A program made the position numbers and the translations under genes. This document shows, piece by piece, positions 14,733 to 24,858 of a DNA stretch of 25,649 nt (the stretch's first letter is position 1; each line of letters starts with the position of its first letter). The stretch spans positions 1 through 25,649 of the IMG/VR virus record IMGVR_UViG_3300030333_007914. One strand, written 5' to 3'. This stretch comes from a virus. Below the pieces are notes generated by a model. That model was not told the DNA's origin and did no database searches. It saw nothing but the letters and a program-made list of their open reading frames with translations.

Positions 14733-16319
14733 TCACTTTATAATCCATTTATACTGATTGTATAATTTTTCAGCTTCAGTCATTTTATCAAAAATTTCAT
14801 TAGTTTTGTAGCCATGCTGGCCTTTGATTTGGGTGTTCATAGTTGTTCTTGTGGTATAGATTGCACTTACAAAAGCTTTTTGATAATTCAAATCTCTTGC
14901 ATTTGCCTGCAGTGCAGTGTCTCTTACCCAGCACGCAATGGCAAGTGCCATAATTAAATCATCATTGTAGCCTTTCATTGCTTGTGGCTTACCATTCCTC
15001 CAAATAAAAGTCTTCATCTCATTAGTTGTGCGAGAAGAATATATGGTAATTAGTTTGTTTCTAATAAACTCCTCTAATTTGGCTACGATGAGAGGACGAG
15101 TCTTCATAGAAGTGGTAAAACCAGGCACCGCTGATGTTCTTAGTTCGGCTTGATGTTGCTCAATATATTCGTGTGTAGATTTAACTGAGTGGTATACATT
15201 TGGATATTGATACTCTGAGATGAGTTTATCTAGAACCGAGTACCCAATGTTGTTATTTTCTACCACAAGCATACAACCGCCAAATTCTCTACCCACACTA
15301 TTGAGCATATTTGCAAACATATCCAATGTCGGCTTCCCTTGATACTCTCCAATAACTTCAAGTGTCTCAAGCTTGACAATATGAAACGTTGAGTAATCAG
15401 CACCATCGCCCCTTGAAACATCAGCTACTAGCAAATAATTACATGTTGGATCGAATTCTTCAAAAATCCAAAAATTTCTGTCAAAGCCTGTTCTGTATTT
15501 TGGCTCTTTGATAGTTGACAACATCCACTCCATGCATTCGGGATCGATAACAGTTTCACCAGATGTGTTGAAGTTGCATTCAAGCTCTTGAGCAATCTGC
15601 CGCTTTGACATGTTTTTAGTTTCTTTCTTGTACCATTCTTGATCTCTATCTGGATGCACATCCCACATAAGGGTTGTTAAATTAAAATTATTTGTGCCAG
15701 AGTCTGCTTCAGTGCATGTTTTGTGAAACCAATTACCCACACCATTTGGTGTAGACAGAGCAATGCAGCGTCCACCAGTTGATAGCGTTGGGTACAAACC
15801 AGTCCACAATTCTTCTAAACCATCAATGTGTGCGGCCTCGTCCAGCACCAAAAGCGACAGGGCTTCCGAACGACCAGCATCACCAGAAGTGGATGCGGCC
15901 TTGATGGATGAACCATTAGAAAGCTCAAACGATGTGCGGTTATCTACACTAATCGTGGCAATCTTTAACCAATCGGGAACATTGCGCATAATGTTCTTAA
16001 CTTTTTTAACCAAGTTACCTGCTGTCGCAAACTTGGTTGCCATAACAAGAATAGCCTTATCGCGATGGAACAACATCATCCATACAATATAGCCTGCGGT
16101 AATAGTTGAGATACCTAGCTGACGCGCTTTTAGAATAACGTTAAAGCGGTAATCATTAAAATCTTTGAGAAGGTCATCTTGGAAGTCGAAAGTGTTAAAA
16201 AGAATAAGTCCATGTAATGGGTGTGATATTCTCGCATAGTTGTTAAGAAAGTAAGACGGGTCTTTTCCACACTTAAGTATCTCTTTTACTTTTTCTTGTT
16301 TTGATAGTTGAAAACTCAT
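14733..16319 (-). CDS. 17: Large terminase subunit, T4 gp17-like
   Basis: This is the DNA packaging motor ATPase and headful nuclease. The 528 residues show an ATPase domain with the P-loop region LKARQLGIST (63-72), Walker B LLVLDE (156-161) and the coupling motif LSTP (188-191). The nuclease domain has Asp300 in LLVADVSRGDGADYS (296-310), Glu354 in VVENNNIGY and Asp453/Asp454 in KGYNDDLIMAL, the usual acidic triad. The P-loop reads RQLGIST rather than RQLGKT/S, so the usual Walker A lysine position is Ile. Substitution there occurs in other terminases, where an upstream basic residue is thought to serve. The start codon shares its A with the stop of the previous gene (TAATG), indicating translational coupling. 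T4 gp17 is longer (610), with the difference at the N-terminus. Confidence 0.93.
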   Translation of the reverse strand: MSFQLSKQEKVKEILKCGKDPSYFLNNYARISHPLHGLILFNTFDFQDDLLKDFNDYRFNVILKARQLGISTITAGYIVWMMLFHRDKAILVMATKFATAGNLVKKVKNIMRNVPDWLKIATISVDNRTSFELSNGSSIKAASTSGDAGRSEALSLLVLDEAAHIDGLEELWTGLYPTLSTGGRCIALSTPNGVGNWFHKTCTEADSGTNNFNLTTLMWDVHPDRDQEWYKKETKNMSKRQIAQELECNFNTSGETVIDPECMEWMLSTIKEPKYRTGFDRNFWIFEEFDPTCNYLLVADVSRGDGADYSTFHIVKLETLEVIGEYQGKPTLDMFANMLNSVGREFGGCMLVVENNNIGYSVLDKLISEYQYPNVYHSVKSTHEYIEQHQAELRTSAVPGFTTSMKTRPLIVAKLEEFIRNKLITIYSSRTTNEMKTFIWRNGKPQAMKGYNDDLIMALAIACWVRDTALQANARDLNYQKAFVSAIYTTRTTMNTQIKGQHGYKTNEIFDKMTEAEKLYNQYKWIIK

Positions 16320-17234: not shown

Positions 17235-17640
17235 TAAACATCCTATAGGCAGCATATGTTGTTGCAATTCCTGCAGCAACACCACCCGCAAACCACCATA
17301 ACTTATTATCTGGCGATTGGTTTAGCATTGCCTCTTGCAGGGCGGCGATTTCAATGTCTTTTTGTTCGATGCGTAAATCATATTCGCGAGTCAGAGCGTC
17401 TAAACGAATTTGAAAGTTTTGACGTTCAAGGTGAAACTCTGTGGCTTGAACATCTAGTTGATACTCAATCTCTAGGTCGCAACCCATTCTATATTCTTCA
17501 GGCATAACTAACAGCTCAGCAATGCCGCGCTTATTGAACAAAACACCCTCAAAGGGTGCTGGTTCGTTTTCACCAAGAATAGTAAACTGCGCCGGCTCTG
17601 CGTAAGCCAGCGTAGATAATAACAATGCTTTAAGGAACAT
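17224..17640 (-). CDS. Signal-peptide, coiled-coil and C-terminal membrane protein
   Basis: This 138-residue protein has an N-terminal signal-like sequence, MFLKALLLSTLAYA, with a plausible cleavage before Glu15 (AYA-E). A small domain follows, including APFEGVLFNKRGIAELL (about 28-44). Next comes a helical region rich in Glu, Gln and Arg (about 55-105), likely a coiled coil. The C-terminal WWFAGGVAAGIATTYAAY (about 114-131) is probably a membrane anchor with a short basic tail. There is no Cys lipobox, so it is not a standard o-spanin lipoprotein. It overlaps the spanin-like gene by 11 bases and follows a holin-like gene, so a role in the envelope stage of lysis is likely. I cannot assign a family name. 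Confidence 0.65.
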   Translation of the reverse strand: MFLKALLLSTLAYAEPAQFTILGENEPAPFEGVLFNKRGIAELLVMPEEYRMGCDLEIEYQLDVQATEFHLERQNFQIRLDALTREYDLRIEQKDIEIAALQEAMLNQSPDNKLWWFAGGVAAGIATTYAAYRMFNER

Positions 17641-18040
17641 ACTGAAATCCGAATGTATCTGTTACTTGTTCTGCGAGTTCTTCTTTGTTTTCTGTGAACT
17701 GTCTGCGGTTGTCGATCGTTGTCTCAATTTCAACAATTCGTTCTTCAACCACCACCTCAATTTGATCTCTTTCGCGGTCATATTCTCTCTCCAATAATTC
17801 TAGTGCATCACGATAGGTTTGCAATGCGTGTTCTTTTCTTTCTAATTCTTCTGCGTGAATTTCTTGCAAGCCATCGATTTGATTTTGAAGAGATTGTTGA
17901 CTAGCTTCATAGGTATTCTCAAGTTGTTTATAATCATAACGCATTTTTCCAATAACTGCAAGCAAAAGAATAATAATTGTTATTTCTTTCCAGTTTTTCT
18001 TTATCAACCCGAGAACCTTAAGCCAGTCAACTTTAATCAT
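17630..18040 (-). CDS. i-spanin-like membrane protein (Rz-type), 136 residues
   Basis: It has one N-terminal membrane segment (ITIIILLLAVIG, about 20-31) preceded by basic residues. A long coiled-coil domain rich in Glu, Arg and Gln follows (about 37-110), and the tail ends TDTFGFQYVP. This is the layout of inner-membrane spanins, which span the periplasm and help disrupt the outer membrane after endolysin acts. ATG at 18040 is favoured over GTG at 18043, because AAGGAG sits four bases before the ATG. That ATG shares its A with the holin-like stop (TGATG). The partner may be the following gene product, whose start overlaps this stop by 11 bases. No endolysin is seen in the window. Confidence 0.7.
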   Translation of the reverse strand: MIKVDWLKVLGLIKKNWKEITIIILLLAVIGKMRYDYKQLENTYEASQQSLQNQIDGLQEIHAEELERKEHALQTYRDALELLEREYDRERDQIEVVVEERIVEIETTIDNRRQFTENKEELAEQVTDTFGFQYVP

Positions 18041-18231
18041 CACACTCCTTTCATTCTAGCGATGCCGTCAATAATAGCTTGACCACCAATGTAGATGGCC
18101 GAAATCATAACCCAATCGCCAGATGTTAAATCAGAAAACGCCAACAGACCTGTTGCCGTCAACCAAACCATAAACTTGCGAGAAATTGCTTTCTCTACTA
18201 ATCTATCTAATTTTCCTTGTACATATTCCAT
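18040..18231 (-). CDS. Holin-like small membrane protein, 63 residues
   Basis: A short protein with two likely membrane segments, FMVWLTATGLLAF (about 20-32) and DWVMISAIYIGGQAIIDGI (about 39-57). They are separated by a short SDLTSG turn, with a basic N-terminal region and a basic C-terminus. Size and topology fit a class II-type holin, which makes the inner-membrane lesion that starts lysis. AAGGA is seven bases before ATG. It precedes and is coupled to the spanin-like gene, which supports a lysis cassette. Many other small phage membrane proteins share this topology, so the name rests on context. Confidence 0.62.
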   Translation of the reverse strand: MEYVQGKLDRLVEKAISRKFMVWLTATGLLAFSDLTSGDWVMISAIYIGGQAIIDGIARMKGV

Positions 18232-18234
18232 TGT

Positions 18235-18690
18235 TTAATCCTTTTTTTTCATTGGGCCTTTGCATAGCTCCTCAGCCTCTTGTTGAGAAAGACCTTCGGG
18301 TCTCTCATCAGCGTCTGCGTCTTTCATCGCACACATGTATCTTCTTTGTTTTTCAGAGTAAACTTCATTAAGTTCCTCTTTAATAATTCTTTCTAAGTCT
18401 TCTTCAAAGCCAATTTTTGGACGATCTCCATAAGCTCCGCCGGCTTGATAGTCTGTAGGAAAATCTTCTTCTGCCGGCTCTTGCATACCGGCCTGTCTTT
18501 CGGCTTCTCCTTCAAGAGAGCCCTCGCCATACATTTGATTAAAGGCGTCTCCAAATATGTCAGATGTTGCTTCTGGATCCATGCCTTGCAGCATAGCAGC
18601 GATGGCTGGTGCAGCTATTTCCGGGGATAGCTCTTCTTTGATAACTTCCTCAGTTATAATTTGTCGTAATCTTTTAATAGAGATCTTCAT
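18235..18690 (-). CDS. Tagged small protein with EKQRRYMCAM module, 151 residues
   Basis: It begins MKISIKRLRQIITEEVIKEE, a variant of the N-terminal tag also seen at 18925, 20764 and 24383. The middle is acidic and Gly/Ala/Met-rich (PEIAAPAIAAMLQGMDPEA). A second tag-like helix, FEEDLERIIKEELNEVYSE (about 94-112), follows inside the protein. After it comes EKQRRYMCAMKDADADERPE and a C-terminal GLSQQEAEELCKGPMKKK. This end resembles small phage/bacterial modules of the form 'SxxQQRFMGM...', whose function is unknown. AGGAG lies seven bases before ATG and overlaps the stop of the previous gene. It may be an internal head protein with two targeting helices, or a fusion of two tagged units. Confidence 0.6.
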   Translation of the reverse strand: MKISIKRLRQIITEEVIKEELSPEIAAPAIAAMLQGMDPEATSDIFGDAFNQMYGEGSLEGEAERQAGMQEPAEEDFPTDYQAGGAYGDRPKIGFEEDLERIIKEELNEVYSEKQRRYMCAMKDADADERPEGLSQQEAEELCKGPMKKKD

Positions 18691-18700
18691 TAATTAACTC

Positions 18701-18925
18701 CTAGTCTGCTGTCAATAAAGCCGCTACTGCCTGAGACAGAACCAGAGGATCTAAACCGGATGGCTCGGCCAACGTCTCAATTTCAGCCCTAACTTTATTA
18801 GCAATACCCTCTGCTGCTTTTGGAACATCAGTAATAGCTGCCATAATTTCTTCACCTTCATCGGCTTCAAACATTTCAATCTCTTCTAAAATAATTTGTT
18901 TAAGTTGTGTTTTTGTTATTTTCAT
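18701..18925 (-). CDS. Tagged small acidic protein, 74 residues
   Basis: It starts MKITKTQLKQIILEEIEMFE, the same tag as the gene at 20764, with only two base differences in the first 12 codons. The body is short, acidic and predicted helical (DVPKAAEGIANKVRAEIETL, then PLVLSQAVAALLTAD). There is no membrane segment, Cys or catalytic motif. It lies between the 114-residue Cys-bearing gene (two-base gap) and the double-tagged gene. Because tag and body have different histories, the tag is probably a localisation or assembly signal and the body the cargo. What the body does is unknown. Confidence 0.62.
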   Translation of the reverse strand: MKITKTQLKQIILEEIEMFEADEGEEIMAAITDVPKAAEGIANKVRAEIETLAEPSGLDPLVLSQAVAALLTAD

Positions 18926-18927
18926 TA

Positions 18928-19272
18928 TTAGGTTACCTTTTTAATTTTCTTAGCAATATTTGGGTGCTGTTCTTTAAACTTTGCCACTACCTCCGACATG
19001 CTAACCTCGGCGCAATCACAATCACACCATTCATCAAACGTTGTTTGAATATTATACTTTTCAATAATATAATCACTAATGGCGGCATCTTTTAACATTT
19101 GGCTAAACATTTCAGAACACGTATCGTTTTCCACTAAAACCTCAACAGGGGCTGGAATTCTTTCGACAATAATTTCCTCGATAACATCCCGCTCAGAAAC
19201 CTCAATTTGTTCTGTATGTGGAGCAGAAAATTTGCTTACTAGCCAGTTCCATAATTTTAATAACCAATTCAT
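18928..19272 (-). CDS. Unknown protein, 114 residues, aromatic N-terminus
   Basis: I start at ATG 19272 (MNWLLKLWNWLVSKFSAPHT) because AAGGA, overlapping the FtsZ-like stop codon, lies eight bases upstream; the frame extends further back only within the FtsZ-like gene. The first 15 residues are a Trp/Leu-rich amphipathic or membrane-associated helix. An acidic, Val/Ile-rich segment follows (RDVIEEIIVERIPAPVEVLV). The second half is helical with a Cys cluster (WCDCDCAEVSM, about 87-97) and a basic end (AKKIKKVT). The Cys group could bind a metal. No family recognised. The immediate position after the FtsZ-like gene raises the possibility of a membrane anchor or partner for it, which is conjecture. 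Confidence 0.58.
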   Translation of the reverse strand: MNWLLKLWNWLVSKFSAPHTEQIEVSERDVIEEIIVERIPAPVEVLVENDTCSEMFSQMLKDAAISDYIIEKYNIQTTFDEWCDCDCAEVSMSEVVAKFKEQHPNIAKKIKKVT

Positions 19273-19283
19273 TTTATTATTCC

Positions 19284-20423
19284 TTATGTCGCTAATCCAT
19301 TCATACTTAGTATCGCAATCAATCCAGGCACATTCTTTCGCACATAAACGCCAGAGAATAGTGTCTCGCATCGACCACCGACATAAGCGATTGCCGACTC
19401 AATGTTTTTACTGACTCTTGGATCTGCCACCATTTCCTCAGAAGCCACCAAGATTAGGGAGCCGGCGGCGGCCTTGCCTTTAGGTGGCGGGCAAGCAGAC
19501 CTATTCATACAGTTGTGAAGAATCACCGATCCAAGCTTTCCAGTATTTGGATCTTTTATCATGGTTGAGCCGAGAAAAGCTCTCCCGTCATTGCTCAAGC
19601 ATGTTTCCAAATCCTTGCTATCGAAAGATTGAATCGGTGAATCTTCTGTGGAGAGTTTTAACACCTGAGCGAATGACTTAGCAAATTGTGTGTTGGCGAC
19701 AGGGTACATACCAAGCATACCAATTCTGCCGCGAAGTAAGCGTGTGGAGCGCTCGTTATCAAGAATGATGTGCGGATGCTTGGCTACGTCATTAGCCAGC
19801 GTTAACGCATTGCGAGCGATTGTGGGGTTAAGGTTTTCTTGTGCTGTTGGCCAAGAAACAATGTAAACGACCTGTCCCGAAGCTTGGACGGAACGCAGGT
19901 AGCGATCAAACACAGGCTGTAGCGCAGTCACAGAACTTCCAGTTCCGCCACCGCCGCCAGCTAAAACAAACAGCCAGTCAACCTTTCCAAGTTTAATGCG
20001 CAGTGCGTCTTCAACGACAGCGCCGTTCTGCGACAAGATTTCCTTGCCGTATTCAGTATTCTTTCCAATGCCATCGCTGTCGGGAATAAGAACAACGTGA
20101 TCTTCTTCAACGTTCTTTGGGATGTCCTTGCCTGTGGTGTTCACAAGCAGCGTCTTATTAAAGCCAAGCTCAATAAAAGCGTTAGCCATTTTATTGCCTC
20201 CACCGCCGACACCAACAAAGCCAACGTTCAGGGAGGAAGGAGCAGTGTTTTCTGGGAGGAGATCTTCATCAGAGTATTCCATCTGTAATCCAAAGTCCTC
20301 AACCATTCCGAAATCTTCTGCTGCGACTTCTTCGTGATAGCTGTCTTTCTCCTGATTAAAGGAGGGTGGTGGTTCTGCGGGAGGCAGAAAATCAAATTCA
20401 TTATCGTTGTCTTTATTGCTCAT
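19284..20423 (-). CDS. FtsZ/tubulin-superfamily GTPase, 379 residues
   Basis: A polymer-forming GTPase by family. A disordered acidic N-terminus of about 64 residues precedes the GTPase core. Conserved elements appear in order: T1 loop GFVGVGGGGNKMANAF (68-83), T4 glycine loop LAGGGGGTGSS (154-164), and the T7 catalytic loop with Asp268 and Asp271 in SFDSKDLETCLSNDGRAFLG (266-285). The T7 loop aligns with the bacterial FtsZ D-x-x-D-V-x-T-x-M-S-x-x-G-x-A-x-x-G pattern. The intact T7 aspartates suggest that it can hydrolyse GTP. It starts by ATGA overlap with the tagged 114-residue gene, so the two are co-translated. Jumbo-phage PhuZ and phage/plasmid TubZ are known relatives, but the glycine and T7 motifs here look closer to FtsZ. 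Plausible roles are positioning phage DNA or heads, or interference with host division. Neither is shown. Confidence 0.87.
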   Translation of the reverse strand: MSNKDNDNEFDFLPPAEPPPSFNQEKDSYHEEVAAEDFGMVEDFGLQMEYSDEDLLPENTAPSSLNVGFVGVGGGGNKMANAFIELGFNKTLLVNTTGKDIPKNVEEDHVVLIPDSDGIGKNTEYGKEILSQNGAVVEDALRIKLGKVDWLFVLAGGGGGTGSSVTALQPVFDRYLRSVQASGQVVYIVSWPTAQENLNPTIARNALTLANDVAKHPHIILDNERSTRLLRGRIGMLGMYPVANTQFAKSFAQVLKLSTEDSPIQSFDSKDLETCLSNDGRAFLGSTMIKDPNTGKLGSVILHNCMNRSACPPPKGKAAAGSLILVASEEMVADPRVSKNIESAIAYVGGRCETLFSGVYVRKNVPGLIAILSMNGLAT

Positions 20424-20764
20424 TGCTGCTCCATTTCTAGTTCTTCGATAGCTTGATCGAGAAGTCTATTTTGTCTTTCATCTCCGGGAACTGCTGAAAC
20501 TCTCATACCCATATCTCTCATGATGTTCTTAATCATATCAATATATTCTCTATCAGGATCTCTCTCAGCTTGGCGTTTTTCAGCTTCTTCTCTTTCCGCA
20601 TCAGTCATTGAGCTTCCATAGCTTCTTTTCGGCTTCTTCCTATAAGGAGATGCAATCTCAGGCTCGCCTTCTGGGTCAAAGACGGCGCCATAATCGTGGC
20701 GCCCATGTGCCTCCTCAAGCTCTTCCTTAATAATCTGTTTAAGTTGTGTTTTTGTGATTTTCAT
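20420..20764 (-). CDS. Tagged small protein coupled to the FtsZ-like gene, 114 residues
   Basis: It begins MKITKTQLKQIIKEELEEAH, the archetypal form of the tag in this window. A basic, Pro/Tyr-rich linker follows (EIASPYRKKPKRSYGSSM, about 36-53), then a charged helix (DAEREEAEKRQAERDPDREY) and a helical C-terminus ending EELEMEQQ. There is no membrane segment or enzyme motif. Its ATG shares an A with the stop of the Mre11-Rad50 fusion gene (TAATG), and its TGA overlaps the FtsZ-like ATG (ATGA), making a tightly coupled three-gene block. It could be a partner of the FtsZ-like GTPase or an internal head protein. I cannot choose between them. Confidence 0.65.
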   Translation of the reverse strand: MKITKTQLKQIIKEELEEAHGRHDYGAVFDPEGEPEIASPYRKKPKRSYGSSMTDAEREEAEKRQAERDPDREYIDMIKNIMRDMGMRVSAVPGDERQNRLLDQAIEELEMEQQ

Positions 20765-23700
20765 TATTGATTTACTCTTGCGTATCCGCGCTTTTTGTCT
20801 ATAACAATTTGCATATCAACGCAGTCTTTGAGAGAATCAAGGTGTGAGATAAGCAAAACATTCTTAAAATACACTTTAATTAGTTCCAAAATCCGAATAA
20901 AACCCTCCATATTTTCTTCGTCTAAGGCTGTTCCCGGCTCGTCAAGAATAAATAAATCACCCTTGGGCAGTGACGACACGGATAGGAGCGCCAACCGAAT
21001 AGCCATCGCAGCCATCGTTTTCTCAGCTCCTGACGCCATTTCAATAGGGCGCTCGTCGTATTGCGGGTGCTTAATAAAGATGTCAAACTTGTTGCCAGAG
21101 CTTTCAAAGAAAATCTCAAACTCTACAATATTCGCGAGAACTTTAGCAATCTCTTGATTGATTACTGGAATCTTCTTTTTAATAACGTCATAAGCAATTC
21201 CGTTAGGGTGCATGGCTCTCATGAACAAATCATACGCTGCAAACGACGATCTGAGATCGTGGTATTCTTGCTTTTGATCTCGCAATGTTTCTACACGTTG
21301 TTCGTAGGATCCCACAAGTTTAACGAGGTCAAGCGTCTCTTCTTCACAAGATGTAATCTTTTTATTATTGCTCTTGATACTTTTTTCTAATCCTTTTTTT
21401 TCGCTAAGTAATTTTTCAAGGTTTTCAATAGCTTCTTTATTATCTTCGTACTCAGTAATTTTCAATAAGATATCTTTAAGGGCAAGCTCAATTTTTGACC
21501 TAACAGTTTTGTTACGCTCTCGCTCTAAATCAAGCTGCGTAATCTCTGTTTCAATTTTCGTAATCATGCCGGAGATGCGTGTGTGTTCCATGAGTTTCGT
21601 AAACACATCTGATGGATTTAAAGCCGCTAAATCAACCATGGTGTTCTGTAGTTCATATTCAACCAGTTCTTTGCTGGCAACAGCTAAGTTAGCCTCTCTA
21701 ACAAATTTATTGTCGGAGCAAAACTTACAATTTGGATCATATTCATGATCATGAAGTAGTGCTTCTTTTTTAGCAATCTCGGCTAGCTCTTCATTAAGTT
21801 TCTTTTCTTTTTCATTAAGCAGTTCAATCTTGCGCTGGATCTTCATAAGTTTAGTAATATTTACACGTTCAATCTTACCTCTGCAGTTTTTAAGCACACG
21901 CTTCTTTCTTTCAATTTCTTTCGACTGCTCTTTAATCTCAGTCATAAGAGTTGCGGCTTTTTTAGTTTTTCCTTTTTGTTCTTCGCGAAGTTTAGCAATA
22001 TCAATTAAATCATTAGGAATTGCAGAAATTTGCGCATCTAATGCGGCAAGGCTATCTTGCAAGCTTGTTAATTCAATTCTTAACTCTGAGCAAAATGATT
22101 TGTTTGTCTTTACGTTTTCGCGATGATCTTCCAAAGTTTCATTAGCCGCATCAATTTCTTCGTCATAGTTTCTATCCTGATGCTTCTTTAACATAACCTT
22201 GGCTTCAACCGAATCTTCCTTAGCCATTCGAAACTTCTTCTCAAATACTTCAAGGTCTAAGAACTTGGCGATTATTTCCTTTCTACGTGTCGAGCCCTCG
22301 TCAATAAATGCTAACGCCCCATGCTGAGATGCTAACGAAGAAACCATGAAATCGTCAATCGTCCCAAAATGCTTGCGAATGTTTGCGTCTGTTTCGTTAC
22401 GAGTTGTGCCGTTAAGAGAGATTACTTCATCAGTAATGTGGTCACGCTTTTCAAAATTCAAATCAGTTTTTGCCTCTTGTGTCTCGACACCCTTTAGTCG
22501 CTTTGTGTATTTTGTAGATTCGCGGCTGATTGTATACGTGGCATTGTTGGCTTCAATCGTAAGTCTTCCTCGTCCACAATCTCTATTCTGGTTAATGACG
22601 TTGAGGTTCTTTCGCTCGTTCTTTGAAGTTGTATTAAAAAGAGTGTAAAGAGCAGCGTCGATAATAGAGCTTTTACCGCTAAAGTTCTTTCCGAAAATGC
22701 CAACAATACCATTAAGCCTATCAAAATTAACAACATTATCTTCTCCATAATTAAACAGATTGTCGAACTCAAACGACTTTAGCTTCCAATTTACATTTCG
22801 CGCTATTTCCTCTTTCTCTTCAATAATTTTATTGTAAGTACGATTAAGGTCATAAACTTTTTCCATAGTATCAGAGGGCGCCTGAAAGTCTTTAAGATAC
22901 TCTTCGATTAGTTCTTCTTGGATCTTTGGATCACGCAAGTTCTCCGACTGCAGTCCGTTAGTAATATCCTCCACATTTCCGCGCTGACCACTGGCGCGAT
23001 TTAGAAACGAAATGCTCTCTGGCTTAAAGCGGTGCTTCGCAATGTCCATCGCTCTGCGCATAACATCGAGCGGTAAGTTGTTGTTGCTCACAAGGCGAAG
23101 TCTTGCGCCTGTTGGCACGTCGATCTTCTTGGGCATACGCCCCTTTAGCGTAAGGGGAATTGTGAAGAACGGCTTTGGGTTTTTAAATACAATTGGTTCT
23201 ATTTCCCAATCATTCTTTGATTTGATATCCCATATGAGAATGCCCTTGTCGTTAGTCTCGCCATGGTTTTGCTGAACAGTCGAGCCTGCGTACCATACGC
23301 GACCTTCTTCATCCAAGAATTGGCGCCTATGAATATCGCCCAACATCGAGAAGTCATGGTCATCAAAAATTGTTATTGTGTCTTCACCATTTACCATTGT
23401 CCAGCCAACATCTGTCTTGCAGTTGCTGATTGAGCCGTGATAAAGTGCGATATTAATCTTGTCTGGGTTTGTTGGTTTAATCCACTGCTCTCGATCAAAC
23501 ACAGATAGCACATTCAAGCAGAACTTATCATCTAAATGTGTTTCACCAGAATTTTTGAGCAAGTGCAGCTGAGACAAGTTTAGCGCATCTACAATCGGCG
23601 TGAGTGCATCTTGGCGGCTGCTGTTCTTTAAGTTGCCGTCGTGGTTGCCCAAGATAATATATGTGGGGGCAATCTCCGCTAAGTTGCGAAAAAAATCAGA

Positions 23701-23880
23701 ACACATTTCCACAAACTCTGGTGAGATTTGTGTTTTCGTGTGCGCGATGTCACCGCAGTGGACGATATAATCGACCTCTTGTTCTCGTAATGATTCGTAT
23801 AATTGCTCAAAAACAATCTTATACTCGTAATGATACTTCAAATTTTTGATATGAGTATCGCTTATATGTGCAAACTTCAA
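20764..23880 (-). CDS. Mre11-Rad50 (gp47-gp46, SbcDC) single-chain fusion, 1038 residues
   Basis: A DNA-end processing nuclease and ATPase, separate proteins in T4 (gp47, gp46) and bacteria (SbcD, SbcC), here in one frame. Residues 1-240 are the metallophosphatase: HISDTH (5-10), HCGDIAH (41-47), ILGNHDG (76-82), LYHGS (146-150), LGDIHRRQ (180-187). Residues about 250-365 are the capping/linker region. The ATPase follows: Walker A GKNFSGKSS (397-405), two coiled-coil arms around the zinc hook CKFC (718-721), signature SGAEKTM (950-956), Walker B LFILDE (976-981) and DEPGTALDEEN (980-990). Start is TTG at 23880 with GGAGG four bases before. In T4 the complex makes ends for recombination-dependent replication and degrades host DNA. 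All active-site motifs look intact and no stop or shift interrupts the join. Confidence 0.93.
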   Translation of the reverse strand: MKFAHISDTHIKNLKYHYEYKIVFEQLYESLREQEVDYIVHCGDIAHTKTQISPEFVEMCSDFFRNLAEIAPTYIILGNHDGNLKNSSRQDALTPIVDALNLSQLHLLKNSGETHLDDKFCLNVLSVFDREQWIKPTNPDKINIALYHGSISNCKTDVGWTMVNGEDTITIFDDHDFSMLGDIHRRQFLDEEGRVWYAGSTVQQNHGETNDKGILIWDIKSKNDWEIEPIVFKNPKPFFTIPLTLKGRMPKKIDVPTGARLRLVSNNNLPLDVMRRAMDIAKHRFKPESISFLNRASGQRGNVEDITNGLQSENLRDPKIQEELIEEYLKDFQAPSDTMEKVYDLNRTYNKIIEEKEEIARNVNWKLKSFEFDNLFNYGEDNVVNFDRLNGIVGIFGKNFSGKSSIIDAALYTLFNTTSKNERKNLNVINQNRDCGRGRLTIEANNATYTISRESTKYTKRLKGVETQEAKTDLNFEKRDHITDEVISLNGTTRNETDANIRKHFGTIDDFMVSSLASQHGALAFIDEGSTRRKEIIAKFLDLEVFEKKFRMAKEDSVEAKVMLKKHQDRNYDEEIDAANETLEDHRENVKTNKSFCSELRIELTSLQDSLAALDAQISAIPNDLIDIAKLREEQKGKTKKAATLMTEIKEQSKEIERKKRVLKNCRGKIERVNITKLMKIQRKIELLNEKEKKLNEELAEIAKKEALLHDHEYDPNCKFCSDNKFVREANLAVASKELVEYELQNTMVDLAALNPSDVFTKLMEHTRISGMITKIETEITQLDLERERNKTVRSKIELALKDILLKITEYEDNKEAIENLEKLLSEKKGLEKSIKSNNKKITSCEEETLDLVKLVGSYEQRVETLRDQKQEYHDLRSSFAAYDLFMRAMHPNGIAYDVIKKKIPVINQEIAKVLANIVEFEIFFESSGNKFDIFIKHPQYDERPIEMASGAEKTMAAMAIRLALLSVSSLPKGDLFILDEPGTALDEENMEGFIRILELIKVYFKNVLLISHLDSLKDCVDMQIVIDKKRGYARVNQ

Positions 23881-23906
23881 GTTCCCTCCAGACGTACTTG
23901 TGCCGT

Positions 23907-23914
23907 TATTTATA
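23907..23914 (-). promoter_or_regulatory. T4-type late promoter element TATAAATA
   Basis: An exact match, in the gene direction, to the T4 late-promoter octamer recognised by the gp55 sigma factor, located 26 bases before the TTG of the Mre11-Rad50 fusion. It shares one base with the sigma70-like -10 element. Confidence 0.55.
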
Positions 23915-23942
23915 TAATACCCTATGCAGGATCTGTTGTCAA
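23914..23942 (-). promoter_or_regulatory. Strong sigma70-like promoter of the Mre11-Rad50 gene
   Basis: Minus strand TTGACA (23937-23942, exact -35 consensus), a 17-base spacer, and TATTAT (23914-23919, five of six -10 bases). Predicted transcription starts in the short leader before the fusion gene. It also overlaps the end region of the preceding 46-residue gene only slightly, so it marks the start of a separate unit. Confidence 0.8.
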
Positions 23943-23949
23943 GACTTTT

Positions 23950-24090
23950 TTATAGAAGAAGGGCGCCTATTGCTCCATAAAGCATAACACCCACAAATGT
24001 TGCTGACATTAAAACAATTCCGATAATCTTTAAAAGCTCTAAATCGCTTATGCCTTTTTTATAAAGATATCGAGAAAGTTTTCTTAGCAT
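23950..24090 (-). CDS. Small membrane protein, 46 residues
   Basis: An ATG at 24090 opens a 46-codon frame, MLRKLSRYLYKKGISDLELL, then a single hydrophobic segment (about 21-46, KIIGIVLMSATFVGVMLYG and onward) that runs to the C-terminus ALLL. A basic N-terminal part followed by a membrane helix predicts an N-in inner-membrane protein. Its ATG shares an A with the stop of the tagged gene upstream (TAATG), the same coupling as at other junctions here, which is the main reason to believe the gene. Function unknown. It is not a standard holin by length or topology. Confidence 0.6.
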   Translation of the reverse strand: MLRKLSRYLYKKGISDLELLKIIGIVLMSATFVGVMLYGAIGALLL

Positions 24091-24383
24091 TATTCGTCAT
24101 AATCTCTTGGGTTATATTTATTAAAGGGGTGATCTTTAGGACGCGGACCACCGGTGCGACTAACTCCAATATCTGGGATATCGTCTAGTGTGCGTTTTTT
24201 GCTTTTGGGAGGTTTATATGCTGATGGGTTATCTAAGCACTTTCCAAATTCGCGACTGTTTGCGGAGTACATTTGTGGAACTTTTTCAAGGCATTCATAA
24301 TAGTCTGCTCGGGTTGCTTCGGCCAAAACATTCTCAAGCTCTTCTTTAATAATCTGTTCAAGTTGTAGTTTTTTGATTTTCAT
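24090..24383 (-). CDS. Tagged small protein, 97 residues
   Basis: Starts at ATG 24383 (MKIKKLQLEQIIKEELENVL), with GGAG seven bases upstream; an extra seven-residue extension to 24404 has no such site. The tag is followed at once by A-E-A (VLAEATRADYY), so Leu-Ala-Glu before Ala23 fits a gp21 protease cut that would release the tag. The body has two Cys (YYECLEKV and GKCLDNPS), a Lys/Pro-rich stretch (PPKSKKRTLDDI) and a Pro/Asn/Tyr-rich end (NKYNPRDYDE), and is probably unstructured in part. It follows the 156-residue gene after four bases. Its best comparison is with T4 internal proteins, which carry a short N-terminal targeting peptide removed after an Ile/Leu-x-Glu site. Confidence 0.65.
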   Translation of the reverse strand: MKIKKLQLEQIIKEELENVLAEATRADYYECLEKVPQMYSANSREFGKCLDNPSAYKPPKSKKRTLDDIPDIGVSRTGGPRPKDHPFNKYNPRDYDE

Positions 24384-24387
24384 TTTG

Positions 24388-24858
24388 TTACTCCCACGCA
24401 CCATAGGCTCTTAAAACATTACGAGAAAAGCTTTCCTTTTCTAAACCTTTATTCATCAGGGCCCTTACGGCATTTTTTAAATCAGCTACAATTTGAATGC
24501 CCAACATGTCTACAATTCGATTAGTTTCAGAATCTTCTTTTGGGCCCTTCCAATCAGCAGCTAACATTAATGCCAAAATTTGATTAGGTGGCAAGCCATG
24601 AAGATATTGCTGCGATGTGCCACCATAAAAAATGTTACCGGTTATGCCGTAGTCGCCATCTGAAATGCGCTCAGCCTCATTGCGCATATTTTGATAAGCT
24701 GCCTCGTCGCTTGCAGTCATTCCGCCTGGGGTCAGCCCTCTGCCCACAAAAGCAGCTGCATCTCTAACCGCTCTAAAGGGACCTTCATCTAGTCTTTCCA
24801 TCTTCTCGTTCATAAAGTATCTTGGATCGATTCTTTTTACATTTTTTCTTCTAGCCAT
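24388..24858 (-). CDS. Unknown protein, 156 residues, possible internal head protein
   Basis: I do not recognise a family. The N-terminus is basic then acidic (MARRKNVKRIDPRYFMNEKM, then ERLDEGPF), with Leu-Asp-Glu before Gly26 as a possible prohead-protease site. The remainder is mostly helical: PFRAVRDAAAFVGRGL (about 27-42), LPPNQILALMLAADW (about 90-104) and VADLKNAVRALMNKGLEKES (about 124-143), with a Gly/Tyr/Thr-rich patch in between (GDYGITGNIFYGGT). No membrane segment. AAGGAG is six bases before ATG, and the ACTATTTAT motif is 36 bases upstream inside the end of the primase gene, so it may start a late unit with the next two genes. Confidence 0.62.
   Translation of the reverse strand: MARRKNVKRIDPRYFMNEKMERLDEGPFRAVRDAAAFVGRGLTPGGMTASDEAAYQNMRNEAERISDGDYGITGNIFYGGTSQQYLHGLPPNQILALMLAADWKGPKEDSETNRIVDMLGIQIVADLKNAVRALMNKGLEKESFSRNVLRAYGAWE

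Follow-up and report, generated by a model that had tools for sequence, protein, structure and literature searches.

Gene Z, on the minus strand at positions 19284..20423 of the 25,649-nucleotide stretch of viral DNA analysed here (the window), encodes a protein of 379 residues. By sequence and predicted fold it is a tubulin/FtsZ-superfamily GTPase, and on sequence comparison it represents a new phage tubulin family, distinct from all phage tubulins available for comparison; the assignment draws on Pfam, NCBIfam, solved structures, AlphaFold2 (AF2) and Foldseek. Because Z mostly adjoins head-building genes, its product probably assembles, driven by GTP, into filaments that organise the building of virus particles in the infected cell. 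The proposal that filaments of this new family organise head assembly or DNA packaging in particular is given an even chance of being right.

The reading frame begins with an ATG at 20423 and stops at 19284. When Z was compared with relatives of about 92-94% identity, codon positions 1, 2 and 3 differed by roughly 9, 3 and 45%, respectively. The gene is under strong purifying selection, and a chance open reading frame is therefore excluded. The Pfam Tubulin family (PF00091) covers residues 68-224 with 36.4 bits against a cut-off of 33, the NCBIfam ftsZ model (TIGR00065) matches at E=7e-13, and FtsZ chains of solved structure match from E=5e-12 upward.

The structure prediction and comparison with FtsZ, PhuZ and TubZ suggested in an earlier sequence-only reading of this DNA yielded a tubulin/FtsZ fold. 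AF2 was run as a monomer on an alignment of 106 rows, FtsZ rows among them, which favours this fold; the model had a mean pLDDT of 87.5 and a pTM of 0.82, with most of the core above 90. A model built from 18 near-identical rows alone reached a pLDDT of 46 and was discarded. Foldseek ranked FtsZ first (E=4e-20, TMt 0.77-0.80), followed by CetZ (8e-20) and TubZ (2e-18). The Pfam match, the confident core and this order of fold relatives bear out the FtsZ/tubulin-family GTPase called by the sequence-only reading. The phylogeny placed Z in a clade apart from PhuZ and FtsZ: Z forms one group (support 97/98), PhuZ a second (100/100) and the FtsZ rows a third, on long branches whose deeper order is unsettled. 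The identification of Z as FtsZ, PhuZ or TubZ itself was rejected, since Z fails the curated or profile tests for these proteins and has a clade of its own.

A profile comparison of Z with the viral FtsZ set gave 96%. Another viral FtsZ was also observed, of about 310 residues, with a canonical FtsZ core and neither linker nor C-terminal peptide (L402:714-1646, L383:8835-9767, L371:1610-2545 and about 60 more IMG/VR loci, L362-L437). Inspection of these contigs by eye revealed a WhiB-like gene, an SSB gene and terminase-like genes; the carriers are therefore probably phages of actinobacteria.

The T1, glycine-rich T4 and T7 motifs named from the sequence were all found by alignment and motif count, and none of the 181 intact copies has lost T1, T4 or either T7 aspartate, some contigs being counted twice. 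On the minus strand, the T1 loop GVGGGGN lies at 20193..20213, the T4 tubulin signature GGGGGTGS at 19935..19958, and the T7 loop, with catalytic Asp268 and Asp271, at 19575..19631. The long acidic N-terminal tail of about 64 residues (20232..20423, minus strand) was likewise present, with 18 D/E against 2 K/R. The first ~50 residues are mostly predicted to be disordered by AF2, with a weak helix at 35-44. The tail contains a short conserved motif, EDFGMVEDFGL (20286..20318, minus strand; alignment and motif count), whose family form DF[DG]F[VI][DE]xY occurs in 179 of the 181 copies, about 20 residues ahead of the fold. Within the near clade the tail evolves about as slowly as the core. As the tail is both unusual and strongly conserved, a docking role is plausible. 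At the other end, nearly all copies stop 6-10 residues past the last strand motif; thus no C-terminal linker, conserved peptide or tail was found in the alignment or the 181 copies.

The T4-like gene neighbourhood recognised in the sequence-only reading was confirmed by a gp17-like TerL, a gp20 portal and a gp21 protease. Contigs of the window lineage run from SbcCD through 0-3 variable genes to Z, followed by variable genes, a one-TM protein, a spanin-like protein, more genes, a small-terminase-like gene and TerL, and in the window all of those located below are on the minus strand. The constant upstream neighbour in this lineage is a fused SbcD-SbcC (gp47/gp46-like) nuclease of 1038 residues (20764..23880; family scan), in which SbcD and SbcC are joined in one gene with a TTG start. 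The small one-TM protein and the spanin-like protein, probable lysis genes by family scans and relatives, occupy 17630..18231; in relatives an M15 endolysin sits between them. TerL was located by family scan at 14733..16319. Among TerL-anchored contigs of the window lineage, Z was present in 18 of 21, and the remaining 3 do not visibly reach the Z site.

Many variable genes of this lineage carry a common N-terminal tag. Directly upstream of Z is a variable accessory gene (20420..20764; open reading frame and relatives) whose tagged product begins MKITKTQLKQIIKEE and whose stop overlaps the Z start in an ATGA (stop 20420, start 20423). A second (18701..18925) and a third tagged gene (18235..18690) were defined in the same way in the accessory block. 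The translational coupling read from the sequence is thus real, both in the overlap and in the MKITKTQLKQIIKEE tag; the dedicated partner that it seemed to hint at is not borne out. In relatives the gene just upstream of Z is variable and, in other lineages, a head gene; because it is often SbcCD itself, the tagged gene is not a constant partner. No partner protein for Z was identified. Two tags, MKITKxQLKQIIKEE and MKxLxENWRxYLxEE, recur on otherwise unrelated, highly variable proteins (window 20420-20764, 18701-18925, 18235-18690 and 24090-24404; genes 1, 12, 19, 21-24, 101, 102, 107, 188 and 258 of the large contig G003). Both finish in hydrophobic-x-E and resemble the T4 capsid-targeting sequence cut by gp21; the tags may mark head-targeted cargo.

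In other lineages Z was found between the gene for the major capsid protein gp23 and that for the neck protein, just ahead of the gp21 protease gene, between scaffold genes and gp22, or adjacent to a gene for a putative late sigma factor. The sigma factor is named from the G003 homologue, whose PHROG match is weak (E=0.008). Among 43 copies dereplicated at 90%, 10 were placed at gp23-neck, 5 at gp21, 1 at scaffold/gp22, 4 at the sigma factor and 9 at SbcCD, with 14 unassigned. The gp23-neck placement occurs in two places of the tree with supported branches between them. It is not a universal site: 75 of 76 close gp23 relatives have no Z there. Since such genes fill much of these genomes, the proximity of Z to head genes is partly expected. 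Three sister contigs, all fragments (TerL 63-64% identical), have SbcCD, TerL and gp23 and no Z; at the empty site the one-TM lysis-like gene comes right after SbcCD or with a single small gene in between. Some lineages thus keep Z stably, and others lack it in the SbcCD-TerL segment. A universal presence in the whole clade is unsupported by these three fragments, elsewhere in whose genomes Z could lie.

A sigma70-type promoter, TTGACA-17-TATTAT, matches 11 of 12 consensus positions 33 nt before SbcCD (23914..23942, minus strand). An 11/12 match at a similar distance was found in 7 of 12 loci, window included, and none of the shuffled sequences reached 11. T4 TATAAATA-type late promoters gave no clear signal at the loci scanned. 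For Z itself, the promoter would indicate middle expression and the neighbourhood late expression.

An IMG/VR scan with Z returned 166 close relatives and a scan with a divergent subgroup 347; about 350 IMG/VR contigs carry the gene. Forty representatives are 52-91% identical to the window protein. No match at E<=1 was obtained by tblastn among 50,697 isolate phage records, and the carriers are uncultured phages that form a very common group in the ocean. A tblastn search of GTDB contigs gave one match, L082, in a Flavobacteriaceae MAG. Shine-Dalgarno sites were found for 59% of the genes in the window and 53% of those in G003 (12% and 14%, respectively, after shuffling), compared with 3% in Flavobacterium phage immuto and 52% in a Microcystis phage. 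These figures make a Bacteroidota host unlikely and the flavobacterial host suggested by L082 doubtful; this contig, the sole match in the cellular collection, is probably misbinned.

The biggest Z-bearing contigs measure 185-205 kb. One of them, G003 (195,459 bp), is probably a complete genome of ~195 kb, since its two ends carry a direct repeat of 127 bp. It has a one-piece tmRNA (L093:5525-5864, tag ANNNNYFEQRLAA), encodes GroEL (L095:16381-17961, E=1e-137) and, amid T4-like structural genes, carries a DNA polymerase with a PHP-like start (L096:5801-9232; PHROG DNA polymerase, E=4e-237). An HSP60-tubulin link in jumbo phages is reported in PMC7824862. A fast-evolving family of 280 residues beside the SSB gene (L097:2051-2893, L517-L527), with a GxGxAGxxIA start, was observed in 11 of 14 large Z-bearing contigs and has no known relatives. 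This protein (P0002) was considered as a second tubulin-like protein, but homology to Z was not supported (hhalign 4.5%, 31 residues).

GTP-dependent head-to-tail assembly is established for the tubulin/FtsZ superfamily, and it is implied for Z by the conserved nucleotide and T7 residues. With GTP, Z would form head-to-tail protofilaments in which each subunit contributes its T7 aspartates to complete the GTPase site of its neighbour. That Z has repeatedly settled beside head genes suggests filaments acting on proheads or packaging; during virion production they would bring order to the assembly of capsids or the packaging of DNA, for instance if they moved or corralled the proheads and the replicated DNA. 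The acidic, disordered peptide at the N-terminus is probably a docking arm for cargo, a job carried out in FtsZ by its C-terminal peptide. Because sister phages lack Z at the same site, Z appears to be an aid peculiar to certain lineages instead of an indispensable part of the head. In nucleus-forming phages, PhuZ filaments deliver procapsids to the place where DNA is packaged (PMC8314001, PMC13282480). By analogy, Z would do a PhuZ-like job in phages that show no sign of a nucleus. Positioning of phage DNA or heads, among the roles suggested from the sequence, is thus the favoured reading. There are observations against a head or packaging role: SbcCD and the sigma70-type promoter in the window lineage could mean expression in the replication phase, and sister phages with the same head genes manage without Z at that site.

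The possibility was considered that Z positions or segregates replicating phage DNA, coupled to SbcCD and with no direct role in the capsid. SbcCD is its constant neighbour in the window lineage and has the conserved sigma70-type promoter ahead of it, and PhuZ centres phage DNA (PMC4244570). However, most other lineages have Z away from SbcCD, beside head or neck genes, and no DNA-binding partner or repeat array was found nearby, so this explanation is regarded as unlikely. As another alternative, Z could serve the prohead or scaffold as a GTPase component or chaperone that forms no filaments; several lineages do have it beside gp21, gp22 and gp23. The T7 aspartates are needed in the tubulin/FtsZ family only for hydrolysis between subunits, and their invariance in Z argues against such a role. 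Z also has no capsid-targeting-like tag, and sister phages make heads of the same kind with no Z at that site, which leaves a prohead component still less probable than a DNA-positioning protein.

Capture of host FtsZ and partition of the plasmid type are given less weight. Z could target host division by co-polymerising with or capping host FtsZ, thereby blocking septation and enlarging the cell; FtsZ is its best sequence relative, and Z has no C-terminal peptide of the kind that recruits division partners. This idea, raised by the sequence-only reading, is disfavoured because Z is ~20% identical to FtsZ, which makes mixed filaments unlikely, yet retains its own complete GTPase and T7 residues. 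A decoy would not require an invariant catalytic site of its own, and Z sits with virion genes, not with known early host-takeover genes; we consider the explanation quite improbable. The lowest likelihood, a very slight one, is assigned to the idea that Z partitions the genome of a carrier-state phage as TubZ would. TubZ is related to Z in structure, and phages are among the carriers of TubZ systems (PMC7824862). However, no iteron-type centromere array was seen in 17500-24500 and no TubR-like gene was recognised beside Z.

The phage tubulins in the literature examined are of two kinds: PhuZ, which makes the spindle in nucleus-forming jumbo phages, and TubZ, which acts in partition systems. 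Literature on phage, marine or T4-like FtsZ/tubulin yielded PhuZ and TubZ only, within a coverage that left out most subscription papers, where an earlier description is possible. A broader claim is that a dedicated tubulin, whose docking tail is N-terminal and not C-terminal, serves abundant marine T4-like phages that show no sign of a nucleus as a cytoskeleton for capsid assembly or packaging, extending active assembly transport beyond nucleus-forming jumbo phages; this is tentative and, in our estimate, rather more apt to be wrong than right. A tubulin family of its own, strongly conserved across hundreds of contigs from marine T4-like phages, would mean that a cytoskeleton can also be built by bacterial viruses that lack a nucleus, and its genome position would link it to head assembly. 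The core of Z is small (about 320 residues) and would be an easy in vitro target.

Compared with known tubulins, Z has in FtsZ (TIGR00065) its best sequence and fold relative, with the GTPase core, C-terminal domain and T1/T4/T7 in common. However, the two are about 20% identical, Z scores 48.6 bits against the FtsZ equivalog cut-off of 295.2, and FtsZ has a C-terminal linker and conserved peptide whereas Z has an N-terminal tail instead. CetZ (3zid) is the best full-length solved profile match (E=4.8e-9, profile residues 58-357) and shares the GGTGS form of T4, but its identity to Z in the fold match is about 21% and its separate long branch, from one CetZ row, is of uncertain placement. TubZ (4ei7, 2xka) resembles Z in fold (E about 2e-18). 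TubZ systems have TubR and an iteron centromere; at Z, the family scans made recognised no TubR-like neighbour, and no iteron-type centromere or repeat array was found in 17500-24500 of the window.

Among viral models, the top Foldseek match of Z was A0A6J5RW92 (E=1.3e-22), an FtsZ-annotated protein of an uncultured Caudovirales phage that is 16% identical to Z and belongs to another family by sequence; PhuZ models ranked below it. PhuZ (phrog_4733) is, like Z, a phage-encoded tubulin-fold GTPase, and hhalign aligned the two with 93% probability over the N-terminal half. The PhuZ PHROG matched the window Z at E=0.076, against 4.6e-118 for the phiKZ PhuZ control, and 11 of 40 Z relatives gave weak matches, the best at 2.8e-4. 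PhuZ lies in a separate clade, and Z is without a C-terminal tail. The multisubunit RNA polymerase motif D[FYH]DGD was not found in the Z-bearing genome G003. Z is carried by T4-like phages, PhuZ by nucleus-forming jumbo phages.
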